Shown: positions 35,704-56,222 of the stretch, one piece after another | Layout: each line of letters begins with the position of its first letter | Position numbering within the stretch: the first letter of the stretch is position 1 | DNA from: Saxibacter everestensis | Lineage (GTDB): Bacteria; Actinomycetota; Actinomycetes; Actinomycetales; Brevibacteriaceae | Length of the DNA stretch: 64,000 nt | Reading direction: 5' to 3' | NCBI RefSeq assembly: GCF_025787225.1 | Contig: NZ_CP090958.1 | Coordinates: forward strand, 1,021,856 to 1,085,855 | The notes under the pieces: model-generated | What the model saw: the letters and a program-made list of their open reading frames with translations, nothing else | Told to the model about the DNA's origin: nothing | Database searches by the model: none | Position numbers and translations under genes: made by a program

Positions 35704-35707
<4 letters not shown>
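34739..35707 (+). CDS. argB: acetylglutamate kinase
   Basis: Second committed step of arginine synthesis; 322 residues. [10 protein letters not shown] and [20 protein letters not shown] are the substrate loops, AGLLQARR and [13 protein letters not shown] follow, with GGMIPKMHA-like sequence [18 protein letters not shown] 34739 overlaps argJ by 4 bases. In actinobacteria the enzyme is a target of arginine feedback; an N-terminal extension of about 25 residues precedes the kinase fold, as in the arginine-sensitive type. Confidence 0.96.
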
Positions 35708-38437
<2,730 letters not shown>

Positions 38438-38504
38438 ACAGAACTTGTAACGTACGAATCGCGCAAATTTTCATAGTTCGCAATATCTGAAGGAGAAACA
38501 CAAA
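38438..38504 (+). promoter_or_regulatory. argR-argG gap with ribosome binding site
   Basis: 67 bases. AAGGAGA (38490-38496) is a strong Shine-Dalgarno for the TTG start of argG. An AT-rich stretch with GCAAATTTTCATAGTTCGC is weakly symmetric and could be a secondary promoter or ArgR site; not firm. Confidence 0.5.
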
Positions 38505-41173
<2,669 letters not shown>

Positions 41174-43508: not shown

Positions 43509-43667
43509 GCCATGGCAGGGGTCGCGCCGCCTCTTCGGGTTCGGAGTCCGGCGGCGGCACGCTCCTCGCCGGACGACGTCGGGCGTCAAACGATCCGGCT
43601 GCGCTGCGGCGGCCGGTTCCGGCTAGGATTCATAGCGCAACTGTCGCAGACGAAGAAAGGCTCAATC

Positions 43668-44945
43668 GTGAGTGATGTCCTGGGCGAATTACAGCAGCGG
43701 GGCCTGGTTGCCCTGACTACTGAAGAGGCGGCTCTGAGGGCTGCCCTCGCCGAAGGACCTGTCACCTATTACGTTGGCTTCGATCCCACGGCGCCAAGTC
43801 TGCATATGGGTAACCTGGTTCAGCTGCTGCTGGCACGGCATCTTCAGGATGCGGGGCACAGGCCGCTGATGCTGGTAGGCGGCGCCACTGGCCTGATCGG
43901 CGATCCGCGGATGTCGGGTGAACGAACCCTGAATGACCGCGAGGTCGTGGCCGGCTGGATCGACAAGATCCGGGGCCAGATCGAACGGTTCATCGACTTC
44001 GACGGCCCGTATGCCGCAAGGATGGTTAACAACCTCGACTGGACCGGGGAAGTCTCTGCCATCGACTTCCTGCGCGATATCGGCAAGCACTTCAGTGTCA
44101 ACAGGATGCTGGCCAAAGAGGCGGTCAGCGCCCGGCTCAACAGCGAACACGGAATCAGCTTCACCGAGTTCAGCTACCAGGTGCTGCAGGGCAACGACTA
44201 CCTCGAACTGTTCCGGCGTTACGGTTGCACGCTGCAAACCGGCGGGTCCGATCAGTGGGGAAATCTGACCTCCGGCGTCGACCTGATCCGCAGGGTGGAG
44301 CGGACTCCGGTGCATGCATTGGCCACGCCGTTGATCACCAAGGCTGACGGCACCAAGTTCGGCAAGACCGAATCGGGCACGATCTGGCTGGATTCCGACC
44401 TCACCTCGCCGTACGCCTTTTTGCAGTTCTGGCTGAACGCCGACGACAGGGACGTGATCAAGTACCTGAAGGTGTTCTCGTTCCGGAGTCTTGCCGAAAT
44501 CGCCAAGCTGGAGCAGCAAACAAACGAGCGCCCGCAGGCCCGAGCTGCGCAGCGAGCACTTGCCGAGGACGTCACGACGCTCGTCCATGGTCCGGAGCTG
44601 ACCGCGAAGGCTTTGGCGGCGACCGAGGCGTTATTCGGCGGCGGCGAAATCCGCGGCCTCGACGTGGAGACCCTCGGGCACGTGGTGGCAGAACTGCCGA
44701 GTGGCACGGTTTCCCGGTCGGGAGTGCTTGCCGGCGAAGTAGGGGCCGTCGATGCGCTGGTCAGCAGCGGACTTGTTGCGAGCAAGGGTGCCGCCCGACG
44801 CGCGATCAAAGAAGGCGGCGCGTACGTGAACAACGTCAAGGTGACGGCGGAAGATGCCGTGATTGCCGCCGATGACTTGCTGGGGGAGCGTTACGTTCTG
44901 CTGCGCCGCGGCAAGAAGACCCTCGGCGCACTGACCGCGGAGTAA
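43668..44945 (+). CDS. tyrS: tyrosyl-tRNA synthetase
   Basis: Class I tRNA synthetase, 425 residues. HIGH-type motif PSLHMGNLVQ, tyrosine pocket LQGNDYLELFRRYG, KMSKS-type loop TKADGTKFGKTESG, and a C-terminal S4 domain (GAARRAIKEGGAYVNNVKV) for tRNA binding. GTG 43668 with GAAAGG about 10 bases upstream is the start; the longer open frame to 43512 lacks conservation. TAGGAT at about 43624 may be its -10. A strong terminator follows at 44959-45010. Confidence 0.96.
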   Translation: MSDVLGELQQRGLVALTTEEAALRAALAEGPVTYYVGFDPTAPSLHMGNLVQLLLARHLQDAGHRPLMLVGGATGLIGDPRMSGERTLNDREVVAGWIDKIRGQIERFIDFDGPYAARMVNNLDWTGEVSAIDFLRDIGKHFSVNRMLAKEAVSARLNSEHGISFTEFSYQVLQGNDYLELFRRYGCTLQTGGSDQWGNLTSGVDLIRRVERTPVHALATPLITKADGTKFGKTESGTIWLDSDLTSPYAFLQFWLNADDRDVIKYLKVFSFRSLAEIAKLEQQTNERPQARAAQRALAEDVTTLVHGPELTAKALAATEALFGGGEIRGLDVETLGHVVAELPSGTVSRSGVLAGEVGAVDALVSSGLVASKGAARRAIKEGGAYVNNVKVTAEDAVIAADDLLGERYVLLRRGKKTLGALTAE

Positions 44946-45576: not shown

Positions 45577-47105
<1,529 letters not shown>

Positions 47106-47551: not shown

Positions 47552-47592
47552 GAGCATCTTATTTATTTTTATGGGTTTGTGTGTGTTTTGTG

Positions 47593-50757
<3,165 letters not shown>

Positions 50758-50830: not shown

Positions 50831-50954
50831 AAACAACCACCCCCCGGCCATAAACCCGGGGGTGTCACACTATTCACAACAACTACATAAGCTAACTGTT
50901 GTGACCCACACACTTCACCACCCCCACCACTGTGCGGGGGTCTGGTGACACAGG

Positions 50955-51073
50955 GTTACGGCGGCCATAGCGGCAGGGAAACGCCCGGCTCCATTCCGAA
51001 CCCGGAAGCTAAGCCTGCCAGCGCCGATGGTACTGCACGGGGGACCGTGTGGGAGAGTAGGACACCGCCGGAC
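50955..51073 (+). rRNA. 5S ribosomal RNA
   Basis: GTTACGGCGGCCATAGCGGC to GGACACCGCCGGAC; helix I ends pair (GGCGG/CCGCC). Conserved loop sequences CCGAACCCGGAAGCTAAG and GATGGTACTGCA are present. About 119 bases, directly followed by the operon terminator. Confidence 0.97.
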
Positions 51074-51085
51074 AACCATTCAAGC

Positions 51086-51130
51086 AAGGGGCCTGAGGCT
51101 ACCAGACGGTAGCCTCAGGCCCCTTTCTTC
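51086..51130 (+). terminator. rRNA operon terminator
   Basis: AAGGGGCCTGAGGCTACC pairs perfectly with GGTAGCCTCAGGCCCCTT around AGAC, followed by TCTTC and T-rich DNA. A strong intrinsic terminator. Confidence 0.95.
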
Positions 51131-51262
51131 ATTTCACGACACATCGCCCACGATGACCACCACCCGTCCACAACCTCGCCGCGCGAGTCCACTGGTCCTG
51201 GTGTGGGATAATTGATCGAGCTACTCACGCTTCAAAAAGCCAATTGCATAGAGGAGAGACTC
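51131..51262 (+). other. short gap before the TPR gene
   Basis: 132 bases. GAGGAGAG at 51251-51258 is the ribosome binding site for ATG 51263. GGGATAATTG around 51204 might supply a -10 (TAATTG); no -35 or operator is recognised. Confidence 0.4.
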
Positions 51263-54139
51263 ATGTCTCCGCGAGATTTTGACAGTGAACGACCGCGCCA
51301 GGATCGGCGTGACGACCGCGGCCCCAGCCGTGACGACCGCGCTCCACGACGCGAAGGTGAGCGCAGCTCAGGATTCAAGCGCAATGAGCGCCCGAACAGC
51401 AACCCGAATAGTCGCAGCGATGATCGGCGTCCGCCGCGTGATGGCGAGCGTTCGTCCGGCAGCTTTACACCTAACGATCGGCGTCCGCCGCGTGATGGCG
51501 AGCGCGGGTCCGGCCGATTCACCCCTAATGACCGTCGTCCTGCGCGTGATGGTGAGCGTTCGGATCGCGGTCCGGGGACGTTCAACCGTGATGACCGGGG
51601 CGACCGTCGTCCAGCGCGCGACGGCGAGCGGAGCTTTGACCGGAATGACCGTGGGGATCGGCGTCCGACGCGCGATGGTGAGCGTGGTTCCGGCAGGTTT
51701 ACGCCTAATGACCGTGGTCCTCGTTCCTTTAACCGTGATGACCGGGGCGACCGTCGTCCGCCGCGCGATGGCGAGCGGAGCTTCGTCCGTAACGACCGTG
51801 GTGGAGAGCGTTCAGATCGTGGTCCGCGTTCCTTCAACCGTGATGACCGGGGAGACCGTCGTCCGCCGCGTGATGGCGAGCGTTCATTCAACCGTGATGA
51901 CCGTGGGGATCGTCGTCCGCCGCGTGATGGCGAGCGTGGTTCCGGCAGGTTTACGCCTAATGACCGTGGTCCTCGTTCATTCAACCGTGACGATCGTGGG
52001 GATCGTCGTCCGCCGCGTGATGGCGAGCGTTCATTTAACCGTGATGATCGTGGGGATCGTCGTCCGCCGCGTGATGGCGAGCGTTCATTTAACCGTGATG
52101 ACCGCGGCAGCGAGCGTCCGCGTTCCTTCAACCGTGATGACCGTGGAGACCGTCGTCCGCCGCGTGATGGCGAGCGACGGTTCGACCGTAACGACCGCGG
52201 GGCTGAGCGTTCGGATCGTGGTCCGCGTTCATTCAACCGTGATGACCGCGGGGATCGTCGTCCGCCGCGTGATGGCGAGCGTTCATTTAACCGTGATGAC
52301 CGCGGCAGCGAGCGTCCGCGTTCCTTCAACCGTGATGACCGTGGGGATCGTCGTCCGCCGCGCGATGGCGAGCGTAGGTTCGACCGTAACGACCGCGGGG
52401 CTGAGCGTTCGGATCGTGGTCCGCGTTCATTCAACCGTGATGACCGTGGGGATCGTCGTCCGCCGCGCGACGGCGAGCGTTCATTTAACCGTGATGACCG
52501 CGGCAGCGAGCGTCCGCGTTCCTTCAACCGTGACGATCGTGGGGATCGTCGTGCGCCGCGCGATGGTGAGCGGAGCTTTGACCGGAATGACCGTCGTCCT
52601 GCGCGTGATGCTGAGCGTTCGGATCGTGGTCCGCGTTCATTTAACCGTGATGACCGTGGGGATCGTCGTCCGCCGCGCGATGGCGAGCGGAGGTTCGACC
52701 GTAACGACCGCGGGGCTGAGCGTTCGGATCGACCGACGGAGCACAGCCGGTCGCGTCCGCCTCAGTACATTCGAGACAATTTCCGCGCGCCGCAGATTCC
52801 GGCCGACATCACTGGTCAGGAGCTGGACAAGGAAGCGCGCGCCGAGCTCCGCGGACTCTCCAAGGACAACGCGGAGCGGGTCAGCCAGCACCTGGTTGCC
52901 GCAGGCCGACTTCTGGACACCGATCCTGAGCTCGCCTATGAACATGCGCAGGCCGCAGTTCGCCGCGGTGGCCGGATCGGCATCGTGCGCGAGGGGCTCG
53001 GCCTGGTCGCGTACGCGTTGGGCAAATACGATGAAGCGGTTCGCGAGCTGCGCACCCATCGGCGGCTGAGCGGGTCGAACCACAACCTCGCGCTGCTTGC
53101 CGACTCCGAACGCGGCCGCGGCCGACCTGCCAAAGCAATCGAAATGCTCGGGTACCCCGAGCTAAGCGACCTGGATGAGGCCGACCGGATCGAACTGGTC
53201 CTGGTCGCGGCCGGTGCGCACAGCGACCTCGGTCAGCTGGACGAGGCGCAGCGACTGCTGGAGGCCGAGAACCTGCTCGCGCGCCCTAGCGGTCATCTGG
53301 TCCGGCTGCAGTCTGCCTATTCGGACCTGCTTCGACTTCGCGGTGACGCGGTCGAGGCCGACAAGTGGGAGAAGCTTGCTCGCCGGACTGCTGCCTCTGC
53401 CGGCGCGCTGTTCGGCGACGAGGAACCGGATCCGAACGAGGAGATTGAAATCTTCGAACTGGCCGAGGAGACCGACGTAGACGTGTCCGGTGAGAGCGAC
53501 GCTCAGCTGGCCACATCAGCGGACGGTGAATCCGGCGACCAGGAAATCGTCGAGGAATTCGGCCATGAAGATGATTTCGTTGTCGGCACGGAGTCTGCCG
53601 ACGCCGAGACAGAAGCGCTAATTGCCGGCGAGTTCGCTGCCGAGGATGTTGCTGCCGAAATCGGGTCAACGAAGTCGACGGACGATGAGTCCGGTGACGA
53701 CGACACGCCTGCGGACGATGAGCCTATCGACGAGGATTCCGACGATGATGAACTCGATGACGATGAGCCTATCGACGAGGATTCCGAGGATGGCGAACTC
53801 GATGGACAACCTGCTACCGCCGAGGTGACTGGAGACGCCCCAGCCGAAGAACGGGACGAGCGGAACAGCGACGACAGCGTGCCAGCGCAGGAGACGGACA
53901 CTTCGGTCGATCAGGTATCGCTAGCTGAAGACGACGCCGCGGTGGAAGAGCAGCTGATGGCGGAAGCAGCCGAAGATGATGAAGCTGTCTCCCCGCTGGA
54001 TAGCGAATCCACCGAAGCGGATAGCGAATCCACCGAAGCGGATGGTGGATCCACCGAAGCGCCGGACGGCGAACCGCTGCCCACTCTGTTCGATGACCTC
54101 GGTGGAGCTGATTCCACCGACGGTGACAGCAGGAAATGA
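51263..54139 (+). CDS. TPR-like protein with giant Arg/Asp repeat region and acidic tail
   Basis: A 958-residue protein in three parts. (1) Residues 1-490: low-complexity Arg/Asp/Gly/Pro/Ser/Asn with roughly 15 copies of FNRDDRG in units like RSFNRDDRGDRRPPRDGE, i.e. tandem 54-bp repeats within higher-order 198-bp repeats. (2) Residues 493-720: helical TPR-like domain (SKDNAERVSQHLVAAGRLL, AYEHAQAAVRRGGRIGIVRE, LGQLDEAQRLLEAENLLARP), matching the conserved TPR protein located here in actinobacteria (equivalent of Rv1691). (3) Residues 720-958: Asp/Glu-rich tail with repeated DDEPIDEDS and DSESTEA. The ATG is set by GAGGAGAG. Coupled (ATGA) to the HAD gene. Function unknown; disordered RNA-binding or condensate-forming role is inference. 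Confidence 0.85.
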   Translation: MSPRDFDSERPRQDRRDDRGPSRDDRAPRREGERSSGFKRNERPNSNPNSRSDDRRPPRDGERSSGSFTPNDRRPPRDGERGSGRFTPNDRRPARDGERSDRGPGTFNRDDRGDRRPARDGERSFDRNDRGDRRPTRDGERGSGRFTPNDRGPRSFNRDDRGDRRPPRDGERSFVRNDRGGERSDRGPRSFNRDDRGDRRPPRDGERSFNRDDRGDRRPPRDGERGSGRFTPNDRGPRSFNRDDRGDRRPPRDGERSFNRDDRGDRRPPRDGERSFNRDDRGSERPRSFNRDDRGDRRPPRDGERRFDRNDRGAERSDRGPRSFNRDDRGDRRPPRDGERSFNRDDRGSERPRSFNRDDRGDRRPPRDGERRFDRNDRGAERSDRGPRSFNRDDRGDRRPPRDGERSFNRDDRGSERPRSFNRDDRGDRRAPRDGERSFDRNDRRPARDAERSDRGPRSFNRDDRGDRRPPRDGERRFDRNDRGAERSDRPTEHSRSRPPQYIRDNFRAPQIPADITGQELDKEARAELRGLSKDNAERVSQHLVAAGRLLDTDPELAYEHAQAAVRRGGRIGIVREGLGLVAYALGKYDEAVRELRTHRRLSGSNHNLALLADSERGRGRPAKAIEMLGYPELSDLDEADRIELVLVAAGAHSDLGQLDEAQRLLEAENLLARPSGHLVRLQSAYSDLLRLRGDAVEADKWEKLARRTAASAGALFGDEEPDPNEEIEIFELAEETDVDVSGESDAQLATSADGESGDQEIVEEFGHEDDFVVGTESADAETEALIAGEFAAEDVAAEIGSTKSTDDESGDDDTPADDEPIDEDSDDDELDDDEPIDEDSEDGELDGQPATAEVTGDAPAEERDERNSDDSVPAQETDTSVDQVSLAEDDAAVEEQLMAEAAEDDEAVSPLDSESTEADSESTEADGGSTEAPDGEPLPTLFDDLGGADSTDGDSRK
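51440..52735 (+). repeat. 54-bp tandem repeats nested in 198-bp repeats
   Basis: Basic unit of 54 bases encoding RSFNRDDRGDRRPPRDGE and variants. A 198-base higher-order unit recurs with starts near 52106, 52304 and 52502 (encoding GSERPRSFNRDDRG and following sequence). Identity is high, including synonymous positions, in the 3' half and lower in the 5' half. Confidence 0.9.
53714..53803 (+). repeat. two 45-bp repeats in the acidic tail
   Basis: Units 53714-53758 and 53759-53803 encode DDEPIDEDSDDDELD and DDEPIDEDSEDGELD. Together with three 21-bp units at 53999-54061 (DSESTEA x2 and DGGSTEA) they show that the tail also expanded by duplication. Confidence 0.9.
53999..54061 (+). repeat. three 21-bp tandem repeats in the acidic tail
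   Basis: Units 53999-54019, 54020-54040 (identical) and 54041-54061 (divergent first third) encode DSESTEA, DSESTEA, DGGSTEA. Confidence 0.95.
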
Positions 54140-55095
54140 TGCTTATCGACGCGTACGACGCCGTCCTGTGTGACCTGGACGGCGTCGTATACGAAGGTCC
54201 GCACGCTATCCCGGGCGCCAGCCAGGCGGTAGAGCAGATAGTTCAGTCCGGCCGCCGCACGCTGTACATCACCAATAACGCCTCTCGGACCACCGAGGCG
54301 GTCGCACAGCATCTGAGCGATCTTGCCATTCCGACTAAAGCCGATGACGTTGTCAGCTCGGCGCAGGCTGCCGCGCGCGTGCTGGCAACCGAGCACCCTG
54401 CCGGCTCGCCGATATTAGTTGTCGGCGGCGCCGGCCTGGAAGATGCGCTGTCGGACGAGGGACTGGTCCCGGTTCGCTCGGTCGACGATTCTCCGGCGGC
54501 CGTCGTGCAGGGTTTTGACCCCGAAGTCGGCTGGAAGCAACTCGCGGAAGCGACTTTCGCGGTTCGCGCCGGCGTGCCTTGGATAGCAACGAACATCGAC
54601 CTGACTATCCCGGTCGAACGCGGGATTGCGCCGGGCAACGGCACGCTGGTGAGCGTTGTAGAACAGGCGACCGGAGTGACTCCCCGAGTGGCAGGTAAGC
54701 CTGAGCCGGCGATCTTCGAGACCGCGGTGCGCAGGGCGGATGCGAAGAACGCGATCATGGTCGGGGATCGGCTGGACACCGATATCGCCGGTGCCAACCG
54801 GGCAGGGATCGACTCGCTACTCGTGCTGACCGGCATCACCGGATTGCGTGAACTTGCCGAAGCTCGAGGCATCGATCGGCCTACGCATATCGCCGATTCG
54901 ATTTCCGGGTTGTTCGACTCCATGCCGGCCGTGCGCAGCGACGATGACGGATTTCACTGCGGCGCCGCACACGCGGTCGTAGTTGACGGAAAGCTGATCC
55001 GGGAAGGCGCCGGCGCCGAGCTGGCGCGCGCAGTCAGCTCCGCGGTCTGGGCCGCTGTGGATGCTGGAACCGAAGTGGACCTGGACGGACTGTAG
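54136..55095 (+). CDS. HAD-IIA family sugar/nucleotide phosphatase
   Basis: A 319-residue haloacid dehalogenase-type phosphatase: nucleophile Asp in AVLCDLDGVVYEG, cap-region YITNNASRTTEAVAQHL (subclass IIA), KPEPAIFETAV and VGDRLDTDIAGANRAGIDSLLVLTG for the Mg-binding Asp. HAD-IIA members act on phosphoglycolate, nucleotides or sugar phosphates; the substrate is unknown. ATG 54136 overlaps the TPR stop, with a second in-frame ATG at 54139. The same gene order occurs in Mycobacterium (Rv1692). Confidence 0.9.
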   Translation: MMLIDAYDAVLCDLDGVVYEGPHAIPGASQAVEQIVQSGRRTLYITNNASRTTEAVAQHLSDLAIPTKADDVVSSAQAAARVLATEHPAGSPILVVGGAGLEDALSDEGLVPVRSVDDSPAAVVQGFDPEVGWKQLAEATFAVRAGVPWIATNIDLTIPVERGIAPGNGTLVSVVEQATGVTPRVAGKPEPAIFETAVRRADAKNAIMVGDRLDTDIAGANRAGIDSLLVLTGITGLRELAEARGIDRPTHIADSISGLFDSMPAVRSDDDGFHCGAAHAVVVDGKLIREGAGAELARAVSSAVWAAVDAGTEVDLDGL

Positions 55096-55119: not shown

Positions 55120-55305
55120 ATGAGCGAAGTTCCAAGCCCGCAGAACGTGCCCGCACCCGAGTCGGCTCCGGAGACCAGCGGTGACGCTGAGGTGGATGCG
55201 GTGATAGAGCGGATCGATCAGGTCGCTGAGCTGCCGCTTAAGGAACGCCCAGAGGCGTTCAACGAACTCTATCGCCAGCTGTCGGCGCAGCTTGACGAGC
55301 AGTGA
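55120..55305 (+). CDS. small conserved actinobacterial protein
   Basis: A 61-residue acidic protein: proline-rich disordered start (MSEVPSPQNVPAPESAPET) and a helical C-terminal half (AEVDAVIERIDQVAELPLKE, EAFNELYRQLSAQLDEQ) that looks amphipathic. It occupies the position of Rv1693 between the HAD gene and tlyA and overlaps tlyA by 4 bases (GTGA). Function unknown. Confidence 0.75.
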   Translation: MSEVPSPQNVPAPESAPETSGDAEVDAVIERIDQVAELPLKERPEAFNELYRQLSAQLDEQ

Positions 55306-56222
55306 CGCCCGAAAAACCGGTCAGGCTCGATCAGGAACTGGTCAGGCGTGGGCTGGCTCGTTCTCGCACCCAGGCGGCTCAGTACATTGCGGCTGACGTG
55401 GTCCGCGTCGGCGGCCGGCCCGCGGTGAAAGCCGCGCAGCCAGTGGCGAGCGATGACGACATCGTCGTGACGGAGCAGGAAGCCTACGTGTCCCGGGCCG
55501 CGCACAAGCTCTCCGGCGCGCTGCGTTACTTCGGCACTGTGACCGGCGAGGCCGGCAGCGTGACCGGCGAGGCCGGCACCGCGACTAGCGAGGCCGGCAC
55601 CGCGGCAGGCTCCCTGGTCCGCGGCAGGCGGTGCCTCGATGCCGGCGCGTCCACTGGCGGGTTCACCCAGGTTCTGCTGGAGGCCGGTGCCTCGGAAGTC
55701 GTGGCCGTCGATGTCGGCCACGACCAGTTCGCTCCCGAGCTCGCGCGACGGCCGGATGTCACTTCGCTTGAGGGCACAAATGTCCGCGGTATCGGCCCCG
55801 ACGACATCACCGGCGCCGTCGATATCGTCGTCGCCGACCTCTCGTTCATCTCGCTCACCCTGGTGCTGCCAGCCCTGCGCCGCTGCGTCCGGGACGATGG
55901 CGACCTGTTCCTGATGGTCAAACCGCAATTCGAGCTGAAGCGCTCCGATCTCGACGGCAGTGGCGTTGTCCGCGACCCGGCAAAGCACGGCCAGGCCCTC
56001 CGCTCGGTCGCGGCAACGGCCGGGACCTTGAATCTCAGGGCGGTCGCCATCTGCCGATCGGAGCTGCCCGGACCCAGCGGGAATATCGAGTTTTTCATCT
56101 GGTTCAAACCCCTGGTACCCGAAGCCGCCGACCGCTCGTCAGAACCAAACCCTATGCTCGTAATTGAAGAGTTCGCATCGCAGCTCACATCACGCCAGAC
56201 ACAACGGAGGGGGCAGACATGA
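55302..56222 (+). CDS. tlyA: TlyA family rRNA 2'-O-methyltransferase
   Basis: Ribose methyltransferase of 16S C1409 and 23S C1920, needed for capreomycin/viomycin sensitivity in mycobacteria. N-terminal S4 domain (LDQELVRRGLARSRTQAAQYI) and C-terminal FtsJ-like domain with LDAGASTGGFTQVLLEAGA, DLSFISLTLVLP and MVKPQFELKRSDLDGSG. 306 residues. Between the two domains it has an unusual 21-bp x3 tandem repeat (55539-55601; VTGEAGSVTGEAGTATSEAGT) that lengthens the linker. GTG 55302 overlaps the previous stop. The S4 and SAM motifs are intact. Confidence 0.94.
   Translation: MTPEKPVRLDQELVRRGLARSRTQAAQYIAADVVRVGGRPAVKAAQPVASDDDIVVTEQEAYVSRAAHKLSGALRYFGTVTGEAGSVTGEAGTATSEAGTAAGSLVRGRRCLDAGASTGGFTQVLLEAGASEVVAVDVGHDQFAPELARRPDVTSLEGTNVRGIGPDDITGAVDIVVADLSFISLTLVLPALRRCVRDDGDLFLMVKPQFELKRSDLDGSGVVRDPAKHGQALRSVAATAGTLNLRAVAICRSELPGPSGNIEFFIWFKPLVPEAADRSSEPNPMLVIEEFASQLTSRQTQRRGQT
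55539..55601 (+). repeat. three 21-bp repeats in tlyA
   Basis: Units at 55539-55559, 55560-55580 and 55581-55601 encode VTGEAGS, VTGEAGT and ATSEAGT; the first two are nearly identical. They lie between the S4 and methyltransferase domains. Confidence 0.85.

Follow-up and report, generated by a model that had tools for sequence, protein, structure and literature searches.

A protein annotated as 'TPR-repeat-containing protein', and named Rv1691 or MSMEG_3754 in mycobacteria, is encoded by many actinobacteria. The available part of one description (PMC3072309) gives the operon order lprJ-Rv1691-Rv1692-Rv1693-tlyA-ppnK-recN. A related gene is found in Saxibacter everestensis (Brevibacteriaceae), in a stretch of 64,000 nucleotides of contig NZ_CP090958.1 (positions 1,021,856 to 1,085,855), hereafter the window. 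There, an open reading frame (ORF) at 51263..54139 on the plus strand, with an ATG start, encodes a protein of 958 residues made of an Arg/Asp-rich arm, a TPR core and an acidic tail. An earlier note on this DNA had placed the gene at an Rv1691-like position, which matches the published operon order. The mycobacterial and window proteins share this neighbourhood as well as a homologous core, and the N-terminus is also Arg-rich in Mycobacterium-like genomes. However, the mycobacterial arms have only about 40-60 residues and the tail is nearly absent, the comparison being made via Mycobacterium-like genomes. The assignment of these genomes to Mycobacterium rests on PPE genes in four tested genomes, and orthology to Rv1691/MSMEG_3754 on gene order and published orthologue statements.

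Other known systems resemble parts of the protein. Arginine-enriched mixed-charge domains are, like the window arm, Arg-rich, highly charged, near-balanced and well mixed, whereas the window arm is bacterial, sits on a TPR core with an acidic tail, and uses mainly CGT rather than purine-rich Arg codons. The actinobacterial termination factor Rho carries an R/D/N-rich mixed-charge insertion in the same genome, but on a known RNA helicase that has no domain in common with the window protein. RGG/RG proteins share with it an Arg/Gly-rich low complexity, and many relatives' arms hold at least three RGG, while the window arm has a single one. The Bacteroides Rho described as condensate-forming in the available part of PMC13269538 is likewise a bacterial protein that acts on RNA and has a disordered region, but is not homologous to the window protein. 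The architecture is that of an arginine mixed-charge domain joined to a TPR scaffold. No description of the arm-core-tail architecture was found in the open-access literature searched, a search that left out most subscription papers and bioRxiv preprints, so that its absence from the literature is unproven. Tentatively, and with somewhat less than even confidence, we regard the protein as a scaffold associated with RNA, RNA polymerase (RNAP) or ribosome assembly, and place it, with its long arm, in a family of actinobacterial proteins linked to ribosomal RNA (rRNA) operons.

The arm (residues 1-491; 51263..52735, plus strand) consists of 31% R, 18% D, 11% G, 10% P, 6% E and 5.5% F, with 0.2% K and nearly no aliphatic residues. 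Repetition dominates it, 88% of its residues lying within 6-mers that occur more than once. The 18-residue unit RSFNRDDRGDRRPPRDGE occurs in 10 exact copies that span residues 154-475 (51722..52687, plus strand); 13 copies agree with it at 12 or more of the 18 positions. The residues before 154 form looser repeats. The earlier note had counted about 450 residues of near-perfect repeats: the repeats are there, their extent was slightly generous. DNA tandem arrays in the arm score up to 1145. Among the 13 copies, synonymous divergence (pS 0.374) far exceeds amino-acid divergence (pN 0.034, a value biased downwards since the copies were selected by similarity), which argues that the arm repeats more than by chance. 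A polyampholyte is taken here as having a charged fraction of at least 0.35 and a net charge per residue within 0.25; the window arm has 0.55 and +0.07, and its charges are mixed well beyond shuffled sequences (z -4.8). The likeness to RGG/RD-type proteins that had been proposed holds for its RD half, the mixed-charge domain, and the RGG label was rejected, with one RGG in 491 residues and no tri-RGG box. Searching the genome with the arm matched only the arm itself and its antisense strand, which is no proof of uniqueness because the search also missed the R/D stretch of Rho.

The codons of the arm are peculiar too. CGT makes up 69% of its Arg codons versus 3% elsewhere in the gene, and the same bias is seen in most relatives (35/37 family, 44/50 order and 25/29 class genes, 104/116 in all). 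This preference may reflect translation, a by-product of repeat growth, or a likeness to eukaryotic low-complexity codon bias; the latter, in the available part of PMC12629991, is tied to low-complexity domains and uses purine-rich codons. An open frame of 431 codons runs antisense to this region (51232-52527, minus strand); it was not taken as a gene and is attributed to the repetitive and biased codons of the arm.

The conserved core (residues 492-722; 52736..53428, plus strand) was modelled with AlphaFold2 from an alignment with 42 relatives as an all-helical superhelix of 13 helices (mean predicted local confidence, pLDDT, 91.5), right-handed and built of paired helices as in TPR domains. 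Its matches among PDB structures are TPR proteins of many functions (best Z 15.5); Foldseek returned only one match at E ≤0.001. Pfam TPR matches on the core are all weak and under the curated cut-offs, with none on the full-length protein, and the search for solved relatives gave two marginal SRP72 matches (E 0.06-0.07), which are taken as generic TPR similarity. Neither an enzymatic nor an RNA-binding domain turned up among Pfam and NCBIfam matches at E 0.01. A short AT-hook match (18.5 bits for a cut-off of 17.4) lies inside a predicted TPR helix and is probably spurious. In a full-length AlphaFold2 model made with five Brevibacterium relatives, pLDDT is mostly in the 30s along the arm, which has no secondary structure, and is also low along the tail apart from one short helix; core pLDDT is lower than in the core model because only six sequences were used. 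Composition, charge and model agree with the polyampholyte N-terminus, the TPR-like domain and the Asp/Glu tail described in the earlier note. The arm is predicted to be disordered, and no globular fold, which would have spoken against the note's proposal, is predicted for the repeats.

Relatives were sampled in tiers, namely family (Brevibacteriaceae), order, class and phylum, with sister-class loci in addition and the genus represented by the window genome alone. The core is present in 60/60 family, 151/159 order, 223/246 class and 52/119 phylum genomes sampled, mostly in single copy, and in all 15 Mycobacterium-like genomes searched, with one match each. For comparison of loci, 160 matches were selected manually, namely 40 from the 60 family genomes, 60 from the order, 40 from the class and 20 from the sister class. 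The selection was not random: it favoured high-scoring loci and long contigs, and class loci were chosen among the matches listed. Removing three sister-class loci whose core was not re-found and four without start codon (L059, L102, L122, L161) left 153 rows. Arm statistics cover 128 proteins (39 family, 53 order, 35 class and the window), after exclusion of 17 sister-class rows, four truncated by contig ends (L110, L114, L157, L195) and five doubtful ones (L100, L136, L163, L177, L186). Since the start codons of relatives were chosen by Shine-Dalgarno score, individual arm lengths may be wrong.

Across these 128 proteins the sequence of the arm varies widely and its charge pattern very little. 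Arm lengths run from 36 to 733 residues, and the repeat units differ by lineage (RSFNRDDRG, GGYQGNRRE, REGGFRGGD, RRDDRGDRP, ERRPYGDRN). Net charge is nevertheless positive in 128/128 arms and negative in 128/128 tails, the median share of Arg in Arg plus Lys is 0.98 in arms versus 0.78 in cores, and a charge-hydropathy index predicts disorder for 128/128 arms and 125/128 tails versus 1/128 cores. Opposite charges are interleaved beyond shuffles (z below -2) in 93 of the 95 arms of at least 150 residues. Among non-repetitive arms of at least 100 residues, 26/31 are interleaved beyond shuffles, versus 2/71 tails, and 31/31 deviate in that direction. The polyampholyte limits include 37/39 family, 43/53 order and 21/35 class arms. 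RD/DR dipeptides are enriched (z above 2) in 52/113 arms, and at least three RGG occur in 34/39 family, 29/53 order and 21/35 class arms. Conserved composition of the repeat region, on which the earlier note had made its proposal depend, is therefore borne out by the comparison. Its claim that the repeat expansion is unusual needs correcting, as long arms are not confined to this genome: the window arm is the longest of 40 in the family and ranks 12 of 128 overall. The sister genus, whose core is 77% identical to that of the window protein, has an arm of only 102 residues, so that most of the window repeats probably grew after the two genera split.

The tail (residues 723-958; 53429..54136, plus strand) has 236 residues, 20% D and 18% E, and a net charge of -86. 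Arm and tail lengths are correlated (Spearman 0.51, n=128), and on the core tree the rank correlation of contrasts is 0.47-0.58. Pearson contrasts give r 0.59-0.60 when branch sums under 0.01-0.1 are dropped, a treatment decided after the result with all branches was known. Overall, the correlation gives moderate support to a joint role of arm and tail. The window tail ends near PTLFDDL (54075-54110). The motif [LM][FY]D+[LFYM] (e.g., PLFDL) is present in this tail and in 5/39 family tails, for about 0.1 expected in shuffles; as a general feature of the tails it was rejected, being found in 0/53 order and 0/35 class tails.

The rRNA operon stands directly upstream in the window, as the earlier note had stated: the 16S (45577..47099), 23S (47592..50757) and 5S (50957..51073) genes lie on the plus strand, the 5S rRNA ending 189 nt before the start codon. 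The same holds for many relatives. In 46/58 order loci, 5S or 23S sequence was found no more than 1 kb ahead of the start codon, while 9 lack it and 3 stop at a contig end; the corresponding figures are 32/39 class loci (4 and 3) and 8/17 sister-class loci (7 and 2). The median distance from 5S to start is 135 nt over 76 order and class loci. The 5S also adjoins the gene in 8 of 13 Mycobacterium-like genomes, and the accessible part of a report on M. kumamotonense (PMC10218544) places rrnB behind tyrS, which fits this pattern. Bacterial genomes have thousands of genes and few rRNA operons, so that chance linkage would be well under 1% per genome. Adjacency to rRNA is an old and widely inherited feature of the gene.

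A link to RNA has indirect support from two further sides. First, Rho of the same genome (L318) has a long R/D/N-rich mixed-charge stretch ahead of its helicase part, more mixed than the window arm on the measure used (0.33 for Rho, 0.28 for the arm), and one of three DEAD-box ORFs examined, out of 18 DEAD matches in the genome, has an R/D/G-rich C-terminus. Second, one study (PMC7092591) selected MSMEG_3754, described as the orthologue of Rv1691, out of a high-confidence anti-RNAP set of M. smegmatis; the FLAG-tagged protein pulled down no DNA, and the authors allow for an association with RNA.

The RNA-associated scaffold is favoured by the constant charge signs, the interleaving that extends to non-repetitive arms, the preference for Arg over Lys and the rRNA linkage, together with the co-variation of arm and tail lengths, the R/D stretches of Rho and a DEAD-box protein and the co-purification of MSMEG_3754 with RNAP. 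In such a scaffold the TPR superhelix would bind a protein involved in transcription or ribosome assembly, while the interleaved Arg-rich arm would make many weak contacts to RNA, nascent rRNA being the first candidate. The arm would also contact further RNA proteins rich in R and D, Rho among them. Where an acidic tail exists, it would be a competitor of RNA for the arm and thereby tune these contacts.

Several observations weigh against this scaffold. In the family itself, rRNA lies within 1 kb in only 1/39 loci besides the window, and many of the 38 others are long-armed; six further family loci have a 5S 1.1-4.3 kb upstream (L085, L091, L093, L094, L095, L097), so that in Brevibacteriaceae the operon is displaced or lost. 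Likewise, 5/13 Mycobacterium-like genomes have no 5S within 1.5 kb, including two with 49 and 79 PPE matches. In the window, a terminator-like hairpin of 18 pairs (51086..51125, plus strand) separates the 5S from the gene, and this strong terminator disfavours simple co-transcription with rRNA; such hairpins occur in 37/76 of the 5S-to-start intervals versus 22/380 shuffles, so that read-through may vary among lineages. RG/GR pairs are depleted (z below -2) in 47/113 arms and aromatic-Arg neighbours in 37/113. A simple RG or aromatic-Arg grammar is thus not what the arms have in common; their shared trait is the pattern of charges, not an RGG or FR motif. The Pearson contrasts of arm and tail length give r -0.12 when all branches are kept. 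The comparison of R/D stretches covered RNA proteins only (Rho and three DEAD-box ORFs), and the RNAP co-purification list comprises 275 formaldehyde-crosslinked proteins in the available part of PMC7092591. With arms of about 40-60 residues and scarcely a tail in mycobacteria, the RNAP data can be evidence for no more than the core. Finally, RNA binding by the arm, the partner of the protein, the competition between tail and arm and any condensation are steps that we infer.

Part of this evidence can be read differently. The core alone could matter, the arm being a near-neutral repeat expansion in high-GC genomes that is tolerated in the role of entropic bristle or solubility tag, and the rRNA adjacency an inherited gene order without function. 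The arm does change fast in length, from 491 residues in the window to 102 in the sister genus and 36 in two Brevibacteriaceae, the core is kept in short-armed relatives, and the rRNA linkage can be lost. However, a neutral expansion accounts poorly for the interleaving of non-repetitive arms, the constant sign of charge, the preference for Arg over Lys and a pN well under pS among the repeat copies, so that we hold this explanation to be rather unlikely.

The genes that follow suggest another partner. The ATG of a HAD-family hydrolase (54136..55095, plus strand) overlaps the stop codon of the TPR gene (ATGA), and a HAD match lies downstream in 39/39 family and 52/58 order loci, as would be expected if the TPR protein were an adaptor or regulator of the adjoining phosphatase. 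Moreover, at locus L186 one reading frame, with a doubtful start codon, appears to encode both the TPR core and a HAD phosphatase and may be a natural fusion. However, HAD was found downstream in only 17/39 class and 0/17 sister-class loci, counts restricted to roughly 2.5 kb of DNA behind the gene and to a single HAD query, and such a role would leave the arm and the rRNA linkage unexplained; we consider it improbable. Slightly more improbable still is a chaperone or protease adaptor with no role in RNA, for which speak the generic fold matches of the core, the frequent binding of peptides by TPR folds and the presence of MSMEG_3754 in the ClpC1 interactome, but which leaves rRNA linkage and arm unexplained as well, the ClpC1 table being also rich in Rho, RNAP subunits, RNase E and many ribosomal proteins, with contaminants noted by its authors (available part of PMC10433963). 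Neither this listing nor the co-purification with RNAP is specific.

Beyond the hydrolase, a TlyA-like rRNA methyltransferase (55302..56222, plus strand) with S4 and FtsJ domains, under the NCBIfam TlyA cut-off, corresponds to the TlyA gene that the earlier note had seen downstream. Within the same limit of downstream DNA, TlyA matches follow the core gene in 38/39 family, 46/58 order, 8/39 class and 1/17 sister-class loci. At residues ~76-106, between the S4 and methyltransferase parts, the window's TlyA-like protein carries a short Ala/Gly/Thr/Glu-rich repeat insertion (VTGEAGSVTGEAGTATSEAGTAAG), absent from the three relatives compared (L058, L094, L103). The ORFs after it are presumably NAD kinase and RecN. 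Ahead of the rRNA operon, an ORF at 43512..44945 (plus strand) resembles tyrS, and further upstream (35704-41173) lie ORFs that resemble argD, argF, argR, argG and argH. As for expression of the TPR gene, a Shine-Dalgarno-like GAGGAG was read from the sequence at 51251..51256 (plus strand), and no sigma-70-like promoter was found in 50900-51400. The start codon of the 958-residue ORF is supported by the sister-genus protein (L058), which begins with MSPKD where the window protein has MSPRD.

The family thus consists of a mostly single-copy protein, present in 223/246 class genomes and usually encoded behind an rRNA operon, whose arms change fast in sequence and length and keep a strict charge grammar. 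Nature thereby offers a series of arms, from about 40 to more than 700 residues, on one core. With this series one can test whether bacteria use dedicated scaffolds to organise rRNA synthesis, and which properties of disordered regions selection maintains where the sequence itself is not conserved. A bolder proposal, which we think unlikely, goes further than the RNA-associated scaffold: the family could form the scaffold of an actinobacterial nucleolus-like body that gathers nascent rRNA, RNAP, Rho and helicases through a common R/D grammar, with the tail as a brake. If this were true, bacteria would be making independent use of the code for condensation by arginine mixed-charge domains that is known from eukaryotic speckles.

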